DNA from: Candidatus Eisenbacteria bacterium
GTDB lineage: Bacteria; Eisenbacteria; RBG-16-71-46; JASEGR01
Reading direction: 5' to 3'
Length of the DNA: 40,893 nt
NCBI GenBank assembly: GCA_030017955.1
Contig: JASEGR010000020.1
Location: 1 to 40,893, forward strand
Positions 16,035 through 36,832 of this stretch are shown here, piece by piece. Both the position numbers and the translations under genes were made by a program. Within the stretch, counting starts at the first letter, position 1; each line of letters starts with the position of its first letter. Under the pieces are notes generated by a model, which had not been told where the DNA came from, searched no databases, and was given only the letters and a program-made list of their open reading frames with translations.

Positions 16035-16226
16035 ATGAAAGTCATATGCAAAGTTTCGCATGAAGAACCAGATCGCAAGGAACCCGGGAGATTCAAATCA
16101 TATAAGGCCAGGAAGATTTATGACCGGGATGAATGGTCGGATGCCTACTTTGAGCCCGCGAAGGAGAAGCAAAAAGCCGACGCAGAAAGCGCGGATACCA
16201 AGCCGAGGGGAGGGAAAAAGGAATGA
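16035..16226 (+). CDS. Small charged tail-region protein
   Basis: 63 residues, highly charged (Lys, Glu, Asp), with segment GRFKSYKARKIYDRDEWSDAYFEPAKE. A GGGGGA ribosome site precedes the ATG. The stop overlaps the major tail protein start by 4 bp, so it is translated with it. Similar tiny acidic-basic proteins often precede tail tube genes; their role is unknown. Confidence 0.6.
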   Translation: MKVICKVSHEEPDRKEPGRFKSYKARKIYDRDEWSDAYFEPAKEKQKADAESADTKPRGGKKE

Positions 16227-17290
16227 TAACCAAAAAAGGATGGGCCAGTAAGTTCATGATCAGCGCCTACAAGAAGGAAACGGCCTATGACGCCGGCGTG
16301 ACCATGAGCGCCGCGAACGCCTACAGCATGAAAGGATTCTCCGCCGAGGTCGACTGGGATGACAAGGTGGTGACCGACAAAGATGACATCACCGGAACTG
16401 AGGAAGGCACGGACCAGGAACTCGTCGAGCAGGGACTGAAGATCGCATACAAAGAGACAAATGCGAAACCCAATAGTGTGATAGCCATGGCCGGCCTGGT
16501 TGGGGGCAGCATAACAAGCACCCAGGATGGCGCACTGATTGCATACAAGCACAAGGTTGTCCGCGTTGCGCTCGGCACTGCCATACCGAGCATTCAGGCA
16601 GAAGCGTTAATCGGCGACCTCCAGTACGCCTTCAAGGGCGTCAAGGGATCCCGGTTCAAGCTCTCAGGCGAAGCCAGTGGAATGGTTTCACTCGAAGCAG
16701 ATCTCATAGGCTCTGGTACTCGGGCCATATCGACAACCAGTTTTGTAGCCGCGGTCACCGAAAGCTGGCTCAAGATGAGGGATTGCAAGGTCTGGATGGA
16801 AAGCGGAAATGCCATTTCTATAAGCCCGGCCCTAGTCCAGGCGGCTGAGGATATCTCGAGCGGCACTCCCAGGGCCCTGGGAGTCCGGCTTAAAAGCTTT
16901 TCCTTCGAATTTGACAACGCCGGTGAAAAACAGGTTGGCTCTGGCGGTGGTGGTGTTGGCCAGGACTATGACTATGGCCGGAGGAAGAGTGCTCTTGCCA
17001 TAAACCTTCTCTATAACGACTCCACCGAGCTAGGAGATTTCATAAACCAGAATCCTCTGGCCGTTGAGTTCGATCTCAAGGGAGCCGGACCCATCGCGCA
17101 GGGTGGAACGCTGTACTACGGCGTTCAGCTCATCATCCCGCGCACCAAACTAAAAAAGGCCCCATGGCCTAAGGGCGCTGCTAACGACATATTGACCTGC
17201 GACCTCGATATCGAGGTCTTTGAGGACGGGACGAATCCGCCATTTATTCTTGAAGGCTACAACGCGAAGGCGGCATATCTCGTCGCATAG
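16223..17290 (+). CDS. Major tail (tube) protein
   Basis: 355 residues. It carries features of major tail proteins of siphoviruses: the N-terminal SAYKKETAYDAGVTMSAANAY segment, a beta-rich body with FKLSGEASGMVSLEADLIGSG, and TLYYGVQLIIPRTKLKKAP near the end. Hexameric rings of such a protein stack to form the tail tube around the tape measure. It is followed by two chaperone frames and the tape measure, the canonical order. No separate Ig-like decoration domain is evident. Confidence 0.8.
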   Translation: MITKKGWASKFMISAYKKETAYDAGVTMSAANAYSMKGFSAEVDWDDKVVTDKDDITGTEEGTDQELVEQGLKIAYKETNAKPNSVIAMAGLVGGSITSTQDGALIAYKHKVVRVALGTAIPSIQAEALIGDLQYAFKGVKGSRFKLSGEASGMVSLEADLIGSGTRAISTTSFVAAVTESWLKMRDCKVWMESGNAISISPALVQAAEDISSGTPRALGVRLKSFSFEFDNAGEKQVGSGGGGVGQDYDYGRRKSALAINLLYNDSTELGDFINQNPLAVEFDLKGAGPIAQGGTLYYGVQLIIPRTKLKKAPWPKGAANDILTCDLDIEVFEDGTNPPFILEGYNAKAAYLVA

Positions 17291-17312: not shown

Positions 17313-17633
17313 GTGGCACAAATACCAAAATCATTAACTATCACGTTGGTGGTCGGCGATGAAGAAGTCACGTTTCAGTTCCGGCCGCCGACAAATCCAG
17401 AACTGAATCATTTCTTGGAAAGCCGGTTTGATATCGGGCGGCATGGCAAAGTAAAGGGACGGGCTCTTCAGGCGAGGATTGACTTTTTCGATCTGCTGCT
17501 TATCGGGGTGGACAATCTCAACGATGGAGACGATCCCATCACACCAGCACATGTTGATCGCATTCCCATGAACTGGAAAAACGATGTGATCTTCCGGTGC
17601 TTTGAAGACAATGAGGTCGACGTAAAAAACTGA
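17313..17633 (+). CDS. Tail assembly chaperone (G-type, upstream frame)
   Basis: 106 residues from GTG 17313, chosen for the AGGGGA site 7 nt upstream. The segment LTITLVVGDEEVTFQFRPPTNPELNHF is the usual beginning of tail assembly chaperones. It ends with an A AAA AAC slippery sequence (17624-17630) read in frame and immediately followed by TGA. As in lambda gpG, most ribosomes would stop here, and a fraction would shift -1 to make the longer GT-type protein. The chaperone coats the tape measure during tail assembly and is absent from the virion. Confidence 0.8.
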   Translation: MAQIPKSLTITLVVGDEEVTFQFRPPTNPELNHFLESRFDIGRHGKVKGRALQARIDFFDLLLIGVDNLNDGDDPITPAHVDRIPMNWKNDVIFRCFEDNEVDVKN

Positions 17634-17672
17634 AAAAGGATGTCCGCTTGCTTTGCGAGCGGGCGGACATCC
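17624..17672 (+). promoter_or_regulatory. Programmed -1 frameshift signal
   Basis: The slippery heptamer A AAA AAC (17624-17630) is in the correct reading phase. The zero-frame TGA follows directly. After a 7-nt spacer, a perfect 10-bp stem (17638-17647 with 17663-17672) encloses a further 4-bp stem with a TTT loop and a 4-nt bulge. Heptamer, spacer and structure are the three elements of a classic -1 frameshift site. Lambda uses the same device, with a different heptamer, between G and T. Confidence 0.85.
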
Positions 17673-17953
17673 CCGATTGTGATGAGTGCCAAGCTTTTCA
17701 GGAAAATCCTGCAGAGTTCGCGGAGAAGGAAATATGCCCAGATTGCGCATGGAGCCGGGACCCAGAAGAACCAATAATCTTCAAGCTCCTGGCATATCTT
17801 GATCTGCTTGATGCGGGATGTCCGGTGAGCCGCCATGAGTTAACCGATGAGGAATGGCGGCTCGTTGGTATTGTGAAGTCTGAACGAGAACGATTCGCAG
17901 TGGATAAGGCAAAGGAAGAGGCAGCGAAAAATGCCGGCGCAAGTCACGGATAA
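17630..17953 (+). CDS. Tail assembly chaperone extension (T-type, -1 frame)
   Basis: After a -1 slip at 17630 the frame is open to TAA 17953 and adds 107 residues, giving a GT-type product of about 213 residues. The extension has two Cys pairs (CDEC and CPDC) plus an upstream Cys, so it may bind zinc, a feature found in T domains of several phages. This frame has no convincing start of its own; its first TTG (17648) lies inside the stem. It ends just inside the tape-measure gene. The T part is expected to recruit the major tail protein. Confidence 0.8.
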   Translation: MKKDVRLLCERADIPDCDECQAFQENPAEFAEKEICPDCAWSRDPEEPIIFKLLAYLDLLDAGCPVSRHELTDEEWRLVGIVKSERERFAVDKAKEEAAKNAGASHG

Positions 17954-24344: not shown

Positions 24345-25370
24345 ATGAGCTTTCGGACACTAACAGACGCAGAGCTTGCACAAGGAATACCAGTGGCGGG
24401 ACTGCGCTTCAAAGAGCGTGACGAATACCTCTTGGAGCTGATTTCGAAGGGGCAGACAATCGCGCAGGGCGTTCCGAACGGCGGCTTTGATTATGACGGG
24501 GACGAAGACGGACAGCCCGATTGGTGGGCGTTTGTTCCATATCCGGGCGGGTCAGGCACGCTCGTCGATACAGTGGCAGGCTATACGTGGCTTCAGGAAG
24601 GCAGCAAAAGCTACCAGATGACCAGCCCGGGAGACAACGCGACGAATGGCGGCGGTGTGCTGACAAGCTCCTACATTGAGCTTTCGCCACTGGTTGACTA
24701 TCTGCTCAGCGGAATCGTCCACAGCTCAAAGAGTGGGGCTGCCAGAGTGAAAGTGACGCTGGACTATTACGCGAGCGGGAAGACGTATGTCAGCACGGCT
24801 ACGCTACTTAACTATGTGCCAAACGTACAGACCGCCTTATGGTTTGCCCGGAGTTTCAGACCGCCAGCCACGGCTCGATACATAAGGATAAATCTTTGCG
24901 GAGGCGTGCCACACACGGTAAGCGTAGGGGCGGGTGCTACGCAGATAACTTGGGATGTGATTCAGTTGAACGAATCCTTGCGATGGCAGGCTCCGATGGG
25001 GCTAGATCAGCGGGCTACAGTGTCGGGAACTTGGTATGAGCGTTATCGCTATCCGTTAGCCTTTCCATATATGGACGGCGAACTTGTCATGGTCGCGATG
25101 CCGATTGAGCTTGCTTCGAACGGGTCAGCTACAGCTTATGCCCGCATGAGATTGAGTTGCGGGATTCCCGGCCAGCAGGGTGTCTCGAATGTGTTTGCTA
25201 CGACCAGCGCGACCTACAAGCGGGGAATCCTGACGGTCATAGGGCGAGCCAGGACGCTATATGGCATTGCTCATTTGTACGTTGATCTGATGAACAGCTC
25301 CGGGAGCATAGTGACCATGACCAGGTTGCCCTATCCGACAAACGCCAGCATAAGAATCCTGAGGGGATAA
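24345..25370 (+). CDS. Tail protein with carbohydrate-binding-like domain (paralogue 1)
   Basis: 341 residues and the first of three tandem paralogues. The N-terminal 35 residues (LTDAELAQGIPVAGLRFKERDEYLL) anchor it to the tail by inference. Next is a jelly-roll domain typical of CBM4/9-like modules (GVPNGGFDYDGDEDGQPDWWAFVPYPGGSG, GGGVLTSSYIEL, ARSFRPPATARYIRI), then a C-terminal beta-rich domain (about 225-341). Such proteins usually bind sugars on the host surface. TAGGAG precedes the ATG. It overlaps paralogue 2 by one base (TAATG). Confidence 0.65.
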   Translation: MSFRTLTDAELAQGIPVAGLRFKERDEYLLELISKGQTIAQGVPNGGFDYDGDEDGQPDWWAFVPYPGGSGTLVDTVAGYTWLQEGSKSYQMTSPGDNATNGGGVLTSSYIELSPLVDYLLSGIVHSSKSGAARVKVTLDYYASGKTYVSTATLLNYVPNVQTALWFARSFRPPATARYIRINLCGGVPHTVSVGAGATQITWDVIQLNESLRWQAPMGLDQRATVSGTWYERYRYPLAFPYMDGELVMVAMPIELASNGSATAYARMRLSCGIPGQQGVSNVFATTSATYKRGILTVIGRARTLYGIAHLYVDLMNSSGSIVTMTRLPYPTNASIRILRG

Positions 25371-26341
25371 TGGGTTTTGACGCAATAACGACAACCGAAT
25401 TAGCCAGAGGGAAACCGTTTAAGACCGGGCTGGCGAAGAAGTTTCGCAACCGGGACGATGCCCTGCTTGTCCTCGTCGATAGCGGAAATCTCTTAAGCCT
25501 AGGAGTGCCGAATCCGTCTTTTGAGATAGACACAGATGCGGATGGGAAGCCCAATTGCTGGACGTTTGCCGCATATCCGGGCGGGTCAGGAGTGCTTGTA
25601 TCGGATGGGATGCACGGAGCCAAAAGATTTCGCTTCACGCATCCGGGCGGAAGCGGAAACGGAGGAGGCACGCTAGTTAGCAACGTGGTTCCAGCGACAG
25701 AACTGACCCGGCAGTACGTCGGCTTTTGTATGTATGCTTCCGTGACCGGGATTGGGGTTGCCGTTCTGGTCAACTGCTATAATGCAAGTCTGAGCTTCAT
25801 CAGCGCAGCCAGCCTGTACGATACGACTGCCGTGCCTACGACAGCGACCCTGTTCATGCGTTCGTTTGTGCCGCCTGCCGGGACGCGGTTCATGGCGATT
25901 GTTTTAGTTGGAGGCAGGAATACGATTGACGTTGCGGGCTATGTGTATTTTGATTTTGTGTCCCTAAATGCCTTGCGGGAGAACGGGAGCGATTGGACGA
26001 TAGCGGAGGGGACCGGAACGGAAACGGATTGGACTGACAAAACTTCGACGACGCTTTATGTGCCTGACCTGAGCGGAGCCATTGTTCTTTTGACCTTCCC
26101 GGCCAGCGTGAAGACAAGCAATTCTGCCGTGACGGGCTACGTTCGTTTCCGGGTCGGGTCGAACTACAGCTCAGAAATCGCCGTCGCAGGATTGCCCTAT
26201 TCCGAGCAGATTTGTCAGATGGTTTTACCTCTAACCGGGGCTTCGGCCACAATAATGATGCAGATAAAGATTCCAGCAGGCGGGGCGACAGTGTACGGAA
26301 TCAAGAACATAGCCCGTTCGTCACTGATTATACTGCCATGA
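25370..26341 (+). CDS. Tail protein with carbohydrate-binding-like domain (paralogue 2)
   Basis: 323 residues. It follows the same plan as paralogue 1: LARGKPFKTGLAKKFRNRDD, then GVPNPSFEIDTDADGKPNCW, AAYPGGSG, GGGTLVSNVVP, MRSFVPPAGTRFMAIVL, and a C-terminal domain beginning near WTIAEGTGTETDW. A 19-bp stretch around YPGGSG is identical in DNA to the first gene, which argues for recent duplication or gene conversion. The C-terminal halves have diverged more, as expected if they contact different ligands. Confidence 0.65.
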   Translation: MGFDAITTTELARGKPFKTGLAKKFRNRDDALLVLVDSGNLLSLGVPNPSFEIDTDADGKPNCWTFAAYPGGSGVLVSDGMHGAKRFRFTHPGGSGNGGGTLVSNVVPATELTRQYVGFCMYASVTGIGVAVLVNCYNASLSFISAASLYDTTAVPTTATLFMRSFVPPAGTRFMAIVLVGGRNTIDVAGYVYFDFVSLNALRENGSDWTIAEGTGTETDWTDKTSTTLYVPDLSGAIVLLTFPASVKTSNSAVTGYVRFRVGSNYSSEIAVAGLPYSEQICQMVLPLTGASATIMMQIKIPAGGATVYGIKNIARSSLIILP

Positions 26342-28270: not shown

Positions 28271-28468
28271 ATGCCCAAGAGAACAAGAACGTCCCTTGTC
28301 CTTGATCGAGTTCAGTATAAAGAATTCAAGAAACTATGCATTGATCTCGATGTCTCGATGTCGGTTGCATTTGATTTTCTTCTGAAAGATGCTCTAAATC
28401 CTGCGCAATTTTCCAACCTAAAGAACCGCTTAATGCATTATCTGCAAACGACTTCAAAAAAAGATTAA
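28271..28468 (+). CDS. Ribbon-helix-helix DNA-binding protein, putative regulator
   Basis: 65 residues from ATG 28271. The pattern RTRTSLVLDRVQYKEFKKLCIDLDVSMSVAFDFLLKDAL is a ribbon-helix-helix fold: a beta strand with alternating residues, a helix, a turn and a second helix. Dimers insert the strand in the major groove. ATG 28217 in frame overlaps the -10 and is unlikely. No ribosome site is obvious, so the start is uncertain. Located at the divergent promoter pair, it is the best candidate for a lysogeny repressor; no cI-like HTH repressor was seen elsewhere. Confidence 0.65.
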   Translation: MPKRTRTSLVLDRVQYKEFKKLCIDLDVSMSVAFDFLLKDALNPAQFSNLKNRLMHYLQTTSKKD

Positions 28469-28486
28469 AACCGCTGCGCTTTTTTC

Positions 28487-28514
28487 TTGACAAAAGTTAC
28501 TACTTTACGATAAT
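28487..28514 (+). promoter_or_regulatory. Early promoter with overlapping inverted repeat
   Basis: TTGACA (28487-28492), 16-bp spacer, GATAAT (28509-28514). An interrupted inverted repeat, AGTTACTA (28495-28502) with TAGTAATAACT (28520-28530), covers the spacer and the start region. GGAGG follows at 28533 before ATG 28543. The repeat is a likely operator, perhaps for the RHH protein just upstream. Confidence 0.65.
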
Positions 28515-28542
28515 CGGTATAGTAATAACTTTGGAGGCGTCC

Positions 28543-28959
28543 ATGACTGAAAGAAAACATTTTCAAGTAGGTAGGAACCCGTTGGTTTTTGTTGGGGACG
28601 CTTCCACGGACCGGCGGGTTCTCCTACTTGCCGAAGAAAGTCAGGTCGATACGATCGGCGGCGGTAGGTCCACAGCCGTAAGATCGAAAGCTATCCGCTC
28701 CCCACTTCCTACGGAGCTCTTTTCTCCCAAGAATATCCTCCGCCAAACAAGTGGGGGGCGTGTTGCTATTTCCGGATTTTTGGAGAGGCAGGTCAATTGC
28801 ACATCTGTGCATGCGGGAAATGGGGCGCCCCTGAAGAATTCGGAGAGGGTAAGGCCAAGAGAGATACCCAAAATCGACCTAGGGCCTGCCAGGGGCATTA
28901 GAAAGGAAAATGTTGGCTCCGCGATGGTGCTTTTCTCGGAGGAGGAGATCGAATGGTGA
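28543..28959 (+). CDS. Hypothetical early protein
   Basis: 138 residues from ATG 28543 with GGAGG 5-9 nt upstream. No domain recognised. The protein is polar and Arg/Ser-rich with likely little compact structure until the C-terminus, which ends in VLFSEEEIEW, a segment I associate with small early phage proteins. The first gene after a strong promoter and operator, it is expected to be expressed early after induction. It overlaps the next gene by 7 bp. Confidence 0.55.
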   Translation: MTERKHFQVGRNPLVFVGDASTDRRVLLLAEESQVDTIGGGRSTAVRSKAIRSPLPTELFSPKNILRQTSGGRVAISGFLERQVNCTSVHAGNGAPLKNSERVRPREIPKIDLGPARGIRKENVGSAMVLFSEEEIEW

Positions 28960-29162
28960 CCCCCGAGGGTCTGCCGGTCATCGACGCTTTATGTCGGGTG
29001 CTTGAGGATGGCGGAATGGGGACCTATCGGGCGCTGCAAACGATGCTCGCAGGGCGCCCCGGGACCCGCGCGATAAGCCGTTCGGTAAAACCTGGCACAA
29101 AGCAAGAGAAGCCAAAGAATCAGATCGAGCCGGAGGAGATACCTCTGGCGCTGGCGTTCTAA
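28953..29162 (+). CDS. Small hypothetical early protein
   Basis: 69 residues. The ATG overlaps the previous gene and is preceded by the purine-rich GGAGGAGGAGATCG. N-terminal helix (GLPVIDALCRVLEDGGMGTYRALQTML), then a Lys/Pro/Glu-rich linker and a hydrophobic tail (IPLALAF). No recognised family. Confidence 0.5.
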   Translation: MVTPEGLPVIDALCRVLEDGGMGTYRALQTMLAGRPGTRAISRSVKPGTKQEKPKNQIEPEEIPLALAF

Positions 29163-35363: not shown

Positions 35364-35654
35364 ATGAAGCGAGACGAACAGGAGTTTTTGATCCAAGTCT
35401 ACACTCAATGTAAAGGCTTTTTTAGCACGGGTCGGAAGCTGCCGAGAGATCTGATAAACGAATCAACATTTCCGATTCACCATAAACGCGCATACTATCT
35501 GCTGGAGAAATGGATCGGTCGAGGATTCTACGAATATGGCGTTAGTCTCGATCTCGGATGGCTTACCCGAGAGGGAAAAGTAGAAGCGATCAGACTTATG
35601 GGGCAGATGGGGCCTTCATCGACGGAATTGGATAACCGGGGCGATAAGACATGA
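35364..35654 (+). CDS. Small protein upstream of integrase
   Basis: 96 residues: helix (DEQEFLIQVYTQCKGFF), a middle part with KRAYYLLEKWIGRGFYEYGVSLDLGWLTREGKVEAI that looks like a winged-helix core, and a polar tail. The stop overlaps the integrase start by 4 bp. A DNA-binding partner of integrase or a regulator is possible. No family assigned. Confidence 0.55.
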   Translation: MKRDEQEFLIQVYTQCKGFFSTGRKLPRDLINESTFPIHHKRAYYLLEKWIGRGFYEYGVSLDLGWLTREGKVEAIRLMGQMGPSSTELDNRGDKT

Positions 35655-36742
35655 GCAAGCATAAGGGCATATACAAGAGAGGCAATATTTGGTGGATAAA
35701 CTATGCCGGTCCAGATCACCGGGAGCGGAGGGAAAGCAGCCGATCGACTCGATTCAAGGACGCCGAGGAATTGCGCGTCCGCCGGAAACAGGAAGTTCTC
35801 GAGGGGATCGATCCCATTGCTGCCAGGAGGATGACGGATCATTGCTTCTTCGAGCTGGCCGGGCATTACCTTGAGTGGGCCCAAAAACAAAAAGCATTCG
35901 AGAGCAAGCGGGGATTCGTCAAACAATTCGCGGACGTTTTCGATAACTTTCCCCTGAGATATTTCACGACCAGGGCAATTGAGGAATGGCAAACGAGCAA
36001 ACTACTGACGAGCAAGCCGGCTACAGTAAACCGTATGCTTGCGACATTGAAACACATGTTCACCAAGGCCTCAGAGTGGGAAATGATCAACGATGAAATC
36101 CTGAGAAGGGTAAGAAGGGTGAAACTATTGCCCGTGAGCAATAGAAGGCTCAGATACCTGTCGAGTGAAGAATGCTCGGCTCTTATCCAGGCCTCGAGCC
36201 CTCACTTAAAGCCAATCATCATCGCGGCGCTGAACACCGGGATGCGGAAGGGCGAGATTCTCTCACTGCAATGGGACAAGCATGTCGACCTGAGGCATGG
36301 GTTCATCCTTCTGGACATAACCAAGAGCGGTGAGAGACGAGAGATCCCAATTAACGAGACGATGAGGGAAACACTGAGCGGGCTGATCAGGCATCTCAGC
36401 AGTCAATATGTCTTCACAGACATTGATGGAAATAGGTTCAAGGATGTGAAGACCGCTTTCAACGCTGCTTGCAGGAGGGCTGGGATAAAGGATCTGCGCT
36501 TCCATGACCTCCGACATACGTTTGCAAGTCATCTGATAATGGCTGGCGTGGATCTAACGACAGTCAAGGAGCTCTTGGGTCACAAGACGATCTCAATGAC
36601 TCTCCGGTATGCTCATCTTGCTCCGAGCCACAAGGTCAAAGCCATGGAGACCCTGGATAACATTCTGGGTGGAAAAGGAACCGCACAAAAACCGCACAAA
36701 AATGGCAGACGGGGAATGAACGGCGCAAACATAACTGATTGA
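35651..36742 (+). CDS. int: Tyrosine integrase
   Basis: 363 residues. N-terminal arm-binding-like part with GIYKRGNIWWINYAG (residues 6-20), core-binding domain about 60-160, catalytic domain about 165-340. The catalytic set is complete: Arg199 (TGMRKGE), Lys225 (TKSG), His285 and Arg288 (HDLRH), His311 (LLGHKT) and Tyr320 (LRYAHL). It joins phage and host DNA within the tRNA gene. The last 20 codons contain the 20-bp arm repeat, so coding and binding functions overlap. The gene reads toward the tRNA. Confidence 0.93.
   Translation: MSKHKGIYKRGNIWWINYAGPDHRERRESSRSTRFKDAEELRVRRKQEVLEGIDPIAARRMTDHCFFELAGHYLEWAQKQKAFESKRGFVKQFADVFDNFPLRYFTTRAIEEWQTSKLLTSKPATVNRMLATLKHMFTKASEWEMINDEILRRVRRVKLLPVSNRRLRYLSSEECSALIQASSPHLKPIIIAALNTGMRKGEILSLQWDKHVDLRHGFILLDITKSGERREIPINETMRETLSGLIRHLSSQYVFTDIDGNRFKDVKTAFNAACRRAGIKDLRFHDLRHTFASHLIMAGVDLTTVKELLGHKTISMTLRYAHLAPSHKVKAMETLDNILGGKGTAQKPHKNGRRGMNGANITD
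36680..36699 (+). promoter_or_regulatory. Putative integrase arm-type site, P side
   Basis: Identical 20-mer to 1555-1574, in the same orientation, 56 bp before the core. It lies inside the 3' end of the integrase gene (encoding part of GTAQKPHKNG). See the left copy. Confidence 0.65.
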
Positions 36743-36755
36743 AAGGTAACGAAAT

Positions 36756-36797
36756 GGGCTGGCGTAGCTCAACGGTAGAGCTCCTCACTTGTAATGA
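36756..36797 (+). repeat. attR: attR core
   Basis: 42 bp identical to 1398-1439. Downstream of it the host supplies the tRNA variable loop, T arm and 3' acceptor strand. The crossover took place within the anticodon-arm part of the core or upstream in it; the exact positions cannot be read from one sequence. Confidence 0.92.
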
Positions 36798-36832
36798 GGA
36801 GGTTGGGGGTTCGATTCCCTTCGCCAGCTCCA
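36758..36832 (+). tRNA. tRNA-Thr(TGT), rebuilt at attR
   Basis: Complete cloverleaf: acceptor GCTGGCG/CGCCAGC (7 bp), D arm GCTC/GAGC, anticodon stem CCTCA/TGAGG with loop CTTGTAA and anticodon TGT (36790-36792), variable AGGTT, T stem GGGGG/CCCTT with two G-T pairs and loop TTCGATT, discriminator T and encoded CCA. Anticodon TGT reads ACA and other Thr codons. Its 5' half is supplied by the phage-side repeat, so transcription must come from phage sequence. Confidence 0.95.

Follow-up and report, generated by a model that had tools for sequence, protein, structure and literature searches.

The window, meaning the whole 40,893-nt stretch of DNA analysed here, very probably carries a programmed -1 ribosomal frameshift of the lambda G/GT type, judging by its sequence. 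A slip between two tail-chaperone frames had been proposed in a preliminary description, and the proposal is supported by the position of the frames between a tail tube gene and a probable tape measure gene, by a slippery heptamer in phase with the first frame, by a hairpin at the classical distance and by recurrence of the junction in highly diverged relatives, with relatives of both halves matching tail-assembly-chaperone families.

Candidate slip site, predicted hairpin and surrounding genes

The gene order around the site is tail tube, G, T and tape measure (Table 1), the last being recognised by its position and size; its ORF has no Pfam match and a single match to phrog_26705, a family of unknown function. 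The heptamer stands in phase just before the TGA of G, as had been described, and the -1 frame runs open for the 107 codons claimed for it without a credible start of its own. The single start-like codon in the early part of this frame, TTG at 17648, lies within the predicted hairpin and has no Shine-Dalgarno sequence, and the next, a GTG, is found about 80 codons into the frame.

Table 1. Features around the candidate slip site, numbered from the first nucleotide of the window.
Feature	Position	Strand	Remarks
Likely prophage, 35.4 kb	1395-36797	+	Between 45-bp att-like repeats in tRNA-Thr
Tail tube protein	16223-17290	+	PF18906 (Phage_tube_2), E 3.5e-11, over the Pfam cut-off
G-type tail assembly chaperone ORF	17313-17633	+	GTG start at 17313; 106 aa; TGA stop 17631-17633
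Slippery heptamer A_AAA_AAC	17624-17630	+	In phase (GTA AAA AAC TGA); abuts the TGA of G
Spacer	17631-17637	+	7 nt; first three nt are the 0-frame stop TGA
T extension, -1 frame	17630-17953	+	107 codons open to 17950; stop 17951-17953
Predicted stimulatory hairpin	17638-17672	+	16 bp: 10 perfect and 6 inner pairs (3 G-U); 3-nt loop
Probable tape measure protein, 847 aa	17931-20474	+	Overlaps the end of T; assigned from gene order, position and size

By itself the heptamer is not rare, as A_AAA_AAC occurs four times in the window against 6.2 expected, and a relaxed scan of both strands for a heptamer near a stop with an open -1 frame returned one additional place, at 28456. This stretch (28456-28960), with an A7 heptamer and an open -1 frame, was rejected as a frameshift and reads more naturally as a promoter (TTGACA ... 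GATAAT) preceding a new gene that has a Shine-Dalgarno sequence and start codon (GGAGG-ATG). Since the heptamer alone is not rare and the second place is apparently spurious, the case rests on the whole combination of features and on its recurrence in relatives. An internal Shine-Dalgarno-like stimulator, GAGG at 17614-17617, was set aside because it fell short of significance in the window (p 0.14); across the set of loci described below, upstream stimulators of this kind are weakly enriched (p 0.004), a figure confounded by Glu codons.

The 7-nt gap, the perfect 10-bp stem and the small second stem that had been described downstream of the heptamer are all present, and the second stem stacks on the first to give one predicted hairpin of 16 bp. 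Its perfect arms are GGATGTCCGC (17638-17647) and GCGGACATCC (17663-17672). The segment 17624-17700 has a minimum free energy of -32.2 kcal/mol, with a z-score of -4.9 relative to dinucleotide shuffles, none of 200 being as good, and the hairpin itself, at -27.5 kcal/mol, is stronger than those at all 100 control positions of the G/T gene pair. Stimulators usually follow the heptamer at a spacing of 5-9 nt (PMC5009743), a range within which the spacing in the window falls.

The tail genes lie between two direct repeats of 45 bp (1395-1439 and 36753-36797, 98% alike) that carry the 5′ half of tRNA-Thr. An intact tRNA-Thr (36758-36832) is located beside an integrase gene (35651-36742), and the repeats are likely the att sites that bound a 35.4-kb prophage, beyond which host DNA lies at either end. 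The window also contains an 80-nt repeat whose copies, 71% alike, occupy positions 24486-24565 and 25520-25599 in adjacent ORFs (24345-25370 and 25370-26341), which suggests a duplicated gene.

Recurrence of the junction in distant relatives

Direct protein searches with G-T gave no match in phages, viral contigs, the 146 nearest genomes (its own excepted) or genome contigs. Relatives were reached through the tail tube, through the gene after the tape measure (a neighbouring tail gene) and later through T proteins and a T profile. They comprise genomes of other bacterial families and the cultured phages Alteromonas P24, Rhodobacter RcZahn, Agrobacterium JP1 and Microcystis Mae-JY22, with about 12-28% identity to T or G of the window. 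Among 20 loci including the window, the G/T junction carries an in-phase A_AAA_AAC in 16 and A_AAA_AAA in four, and the 0-frame stop is the codon right after the heptamer in 12. In genome G051 (28% identity in G), G ends CTA AAA AAC TGA, and a 7-nt spacer leads to a perfect 10-bp stem whose sequence is wholly different from that of the window. For tube loci L013-L015 and several others, no slip junction between G and T could be recognised in the downstream sequence examined, and these loci were left out of the set. One prophage-like region, represented by L034 and L013 (G096 C5:46977-48829), holds a tandem pair of tail tube genes.

The first loci were gathered by a scan that demanded some XXXYYYZ heptamer and no particular one, so the presence of a heptamer in them is partly the result of selection; heptamers of other kinds would have passed the scan, and yet all G/T junctions found by it have A6. 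A less biased test of recurrence is provided by the T profile, A3, which begins after the heptamer and so excludes it. A search of 385 genomes with A3 found five new true T loci (G334, G383, G361, G081 and G303, the last weak at E 0.0056), and all five have an in-phase A_AAA_AA(C/A) just before T; another match to the T profile, at L065, was judged false. Phages P24, RcZahn and JP1, found through similarity of the T protein, each have A_AAA_AAC at the junction, and Mae-JY22 combines the same heptamer with a Cys-rich T that precedes the tape measure. The Cys-rich T domain of P24 (L041, 2854-3156) is unannotated, with A_AAA_AAC adjoining the TAA of the G gene, and near-identical copies of this locus are found in seven IMG/VR contigs. 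The more distant Marinomonas P12026 and Alteromonas XX1924 have an in-phase A_AAA_AAG in the corresponding gene and a different T.

To assess hairpins at each of the 20 loci, the best one with its start 4-9 nt past the heptamer was set against values obtained in the same way at control positions within that gene pair. The hairpin had p < 0.05, beating about 95% or more of the controls, at 13 of the 20, and the combined Fisher p was about 4e-11 for all loci and 3e-9 once the window and one member of a related pair were taken out. Shuffling of the downstream sequence, carried out for the first 11 loci, agrees with this test. Most of the relatives have a stable hairpin, unrelated in sequence to that of the window and separated from the heptamer by a spacer of 4-8 nt. 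Over the 20 loci, the test found no convincing hairpin in genomes G072, G383 and G119 or in phage Mae-JY22.

The sole exception to the recurrence of the heptamer bears on the proposal that T is a separate protein, made where G ends through re-initiation or coupled initiation, with the heptamer incidental. In G003, a genome of the same class as the window, a Cys-rich T of the same type follows the tail tube and G (L030, 589-942; GAG GAG GAA TAA). Its G/T junction has no slippery heptamer, the -1 frame is open after the G stop, and AGGAGG precedes a GTG of the T frame, so that T may be made separately here; the missing heptamer and possible own start suggest that a frameshift is not the only way in which T can be produced. 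For the window such separate synthesis is highly improbable, as the lone candidate start before the Cys region is the TTG enclosed in the 16-bp hairpin, and 20 loci have the heptamer in phase where T begins.

A single gene split by an assembly error or by a recent indel in the A run would look much the same, the window being drawn from an assembly of 248 contigs in which a change of one homopolymer base would give such a break. This is extremely improbable, as unrelated assemblies and complete phage genomes show a break of this kind at the same base, often with a stop directly behind it. Transcriptional slippage, in which RNA polymerase and not the ribosome would generate the extra product, can be provoked by A runs, and a review describes it in bacteria on runs of nine A or T (PMC5009743). 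For the window it has an equally slight probability, since the run here is of only six A, all 20 loci keep the X_XXY_YYZ phase, and the distance of the hairpin is that of a ribosomal stimulator.

The cysteine-rich T domain

The domain that the predicted ribosomal frameshift would add to G contains the two Cys pairs ascribed to it in the preliminary description, namely C17DEC20 and C36PDC39 of the -1 domain. The layout of T consists of a short helix-like stretch, a Cx2C motif, usually a second Cys pair ending in CP (CPx2C in the window) and a helical C-terminal part. In 18 of the 20 loci a Cx2C motif is found no more than 45 aa from the shift, as against 1.7 expected after shuffling, and Cys accounts for 4.6% of the residues of T and 0.8% of those of G. 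In profile A3, whose members were picked from Cys-bearing T domains, three Cys columns are invariant and a fourth reaches 90% or more; Cys is absent from the T of G051 and G303. From this pattern, T probably has a metal site of four Cys, round which it folds, and helices after it; zinc binding by the Cys pairs, in the manner of a zinc ribbon-like domain, is plausible. An AlphaFold model of T is confident in the C-terminal helices only and has no Foldseek match, and the structure model of G, of low confidence, gave no useful fold matches.

Neither G nor T of the window matches a chaperone family above the cut-off in Pfam or phrog, including phrog_313 (tail assembly chaperone) for G and Phage_TAC_18 (PF23812), at the Pfam cut-off, for T; because they fall below every cut-off, the proteins of the window are not filed in these families. 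Relatives come closer. The T of one (L027) reaches Phage_TAC_18 at E 7e-4, below the cut-off, and that of another matches phrog_3914, a tail assembly chaperone family. Three of the 10 members of the G alignment match phrog_313 (best E 4e-9), and relatives of G also match phrog_8233, again a tail assembly chaperone family.

No paper describing a Cys-rich T domain was found in the open-access literature, and this piece, common to very distant phages, seems undescribed so far. Taken together, the observations raise the tentative but quite conceivable proposal that the frameshift delivers a four-Cys, metal-binding T and that such proteins form an undescribed chaperone class, spread across phages of many bacterial groups, often with tubes of the Phage_tube_2 type, and relying almost wholly on A_AAA_AA(C/A), heptamers that slip poorly in E. 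coli. If this is true, such phages would need the rare G-T form to be loaded with metal in order to assemble their tails.

Known frameshifts and proposed mechanism

The heptamer of lambda is GGGAAAG. The window resembles lambda G/G-T (Levin 1993; Xu 2004; as reviewed in PMC5009743) in gene order, in the -1 direction, in a slip near the 3′ end of G and in a T that lies in the -1 frame before the tape measure gene; it differs in having A_AAA_AAC, a stop directly after the heptamer, a strong hairpin and Cys pairs in T. The preliminary description had set the heptamer apart from that of lambda, and the difference is true, but it is neither unusual nor new because A_AAA_AAC has already been reported for the tail chaperones of Loki, phiCbK, Dragolir and HCTV-2. 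The predicted slip of the window is thus a further case of a kind of tail-chaperone frameshift that tailed phages have long been known to use.

In Acinetobacter phage Loki, AAAAAAC next to the stop of gp12 is annotated as a frameshift (PMC5313236). Loki gp12/gp13 is also a tail chaperone with the heptamer directly before the G stop and a similar hairpin geometry, a stable hairpin starting 8 nt downstream, whereas its T is a Phage_TAC_18 domain (PF23812, E 3e-24) without Cys pairs. Caulobacter phage phiCbK has an AAAAAAC slip site at gp93/gp94, with the fusion upstream of the tape measure (PMC3556154). There, as in the window, the heptamer is directly before the stop (TAA), but the T of phiCbK has no Cys and the phage is much larger. 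A_AAA_AAC is also placed at the g-t junction of Paenibacillus phage Dragolir, tentatively in the paper concerned (PMC6003738), and of haloarchaeal virus HCTV-2 (PMC5009743), where the comparison with the window covers the heptamer. P24, RcZahn, JP1 and Mae-JY22 share both the A_AAA_AAC junction and a Cys-rich T before the tape measure; their T domains have 16-21% identity to that of the window, and the frameshift is unannotated in their records, in which the T of P24 has no gene and that of RcZahn is a separate 'tail assembly chaperone'.

From the sequence we infer ribosomal slipping, its rate and the binding partners of the products along the following lines. Most ribosomes would stop at the TGA and release the short chaperone G. 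A few would stall with the hairpin at the mRNA entrance and with AAA and AAC in the P and A sites, where the P-site tRNA-Lys and A-site tRNA-Asn could slip in tandem one base back, from A AAA AAC to AAA AAA, so that CTG would be read next. The product would be a 213-aa G-T fusion (...DVKN-LKKDVR...), giving a little G-T beside much G. The predicted junction (...DVKNLKKD...) would be cut to pieces by trypsin, and VKN-L and VKK-L versions of it are both conceivable.

In lambda, G outnumbers G-T by a molar ratio of about 30:1; the binding partner of G is the tape measure protein, and that of the T part is the tail tube subunit (PMC5009743). By analogy, G in the prophage would coat the tape measure protein and G-T would recruit tail tube subunits through its T part, and both proteins would depart before the tail is complete, with the slip setting the ratio of G to G-T. 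Constructs assayed in E. coli slip far less on A_AAA_AAC than on A_AAA_AAG (PMC5009743), so either a low proportion of G-T or help from the strong hairpin is to be expected.

These findings extend a textbook recoding event to a prophage without near relatives in the collections searched. The signal, made up of an A6 heptamer, an often adjacent stop and a hairpin at a fixed distance, survives near-complete divergence of the protein and stem sequences, and owing to this persistence it can be used for finding unannotated T domains. The Cys-rich T offers a testable point for the recognition of tail tube subunits by G-T.
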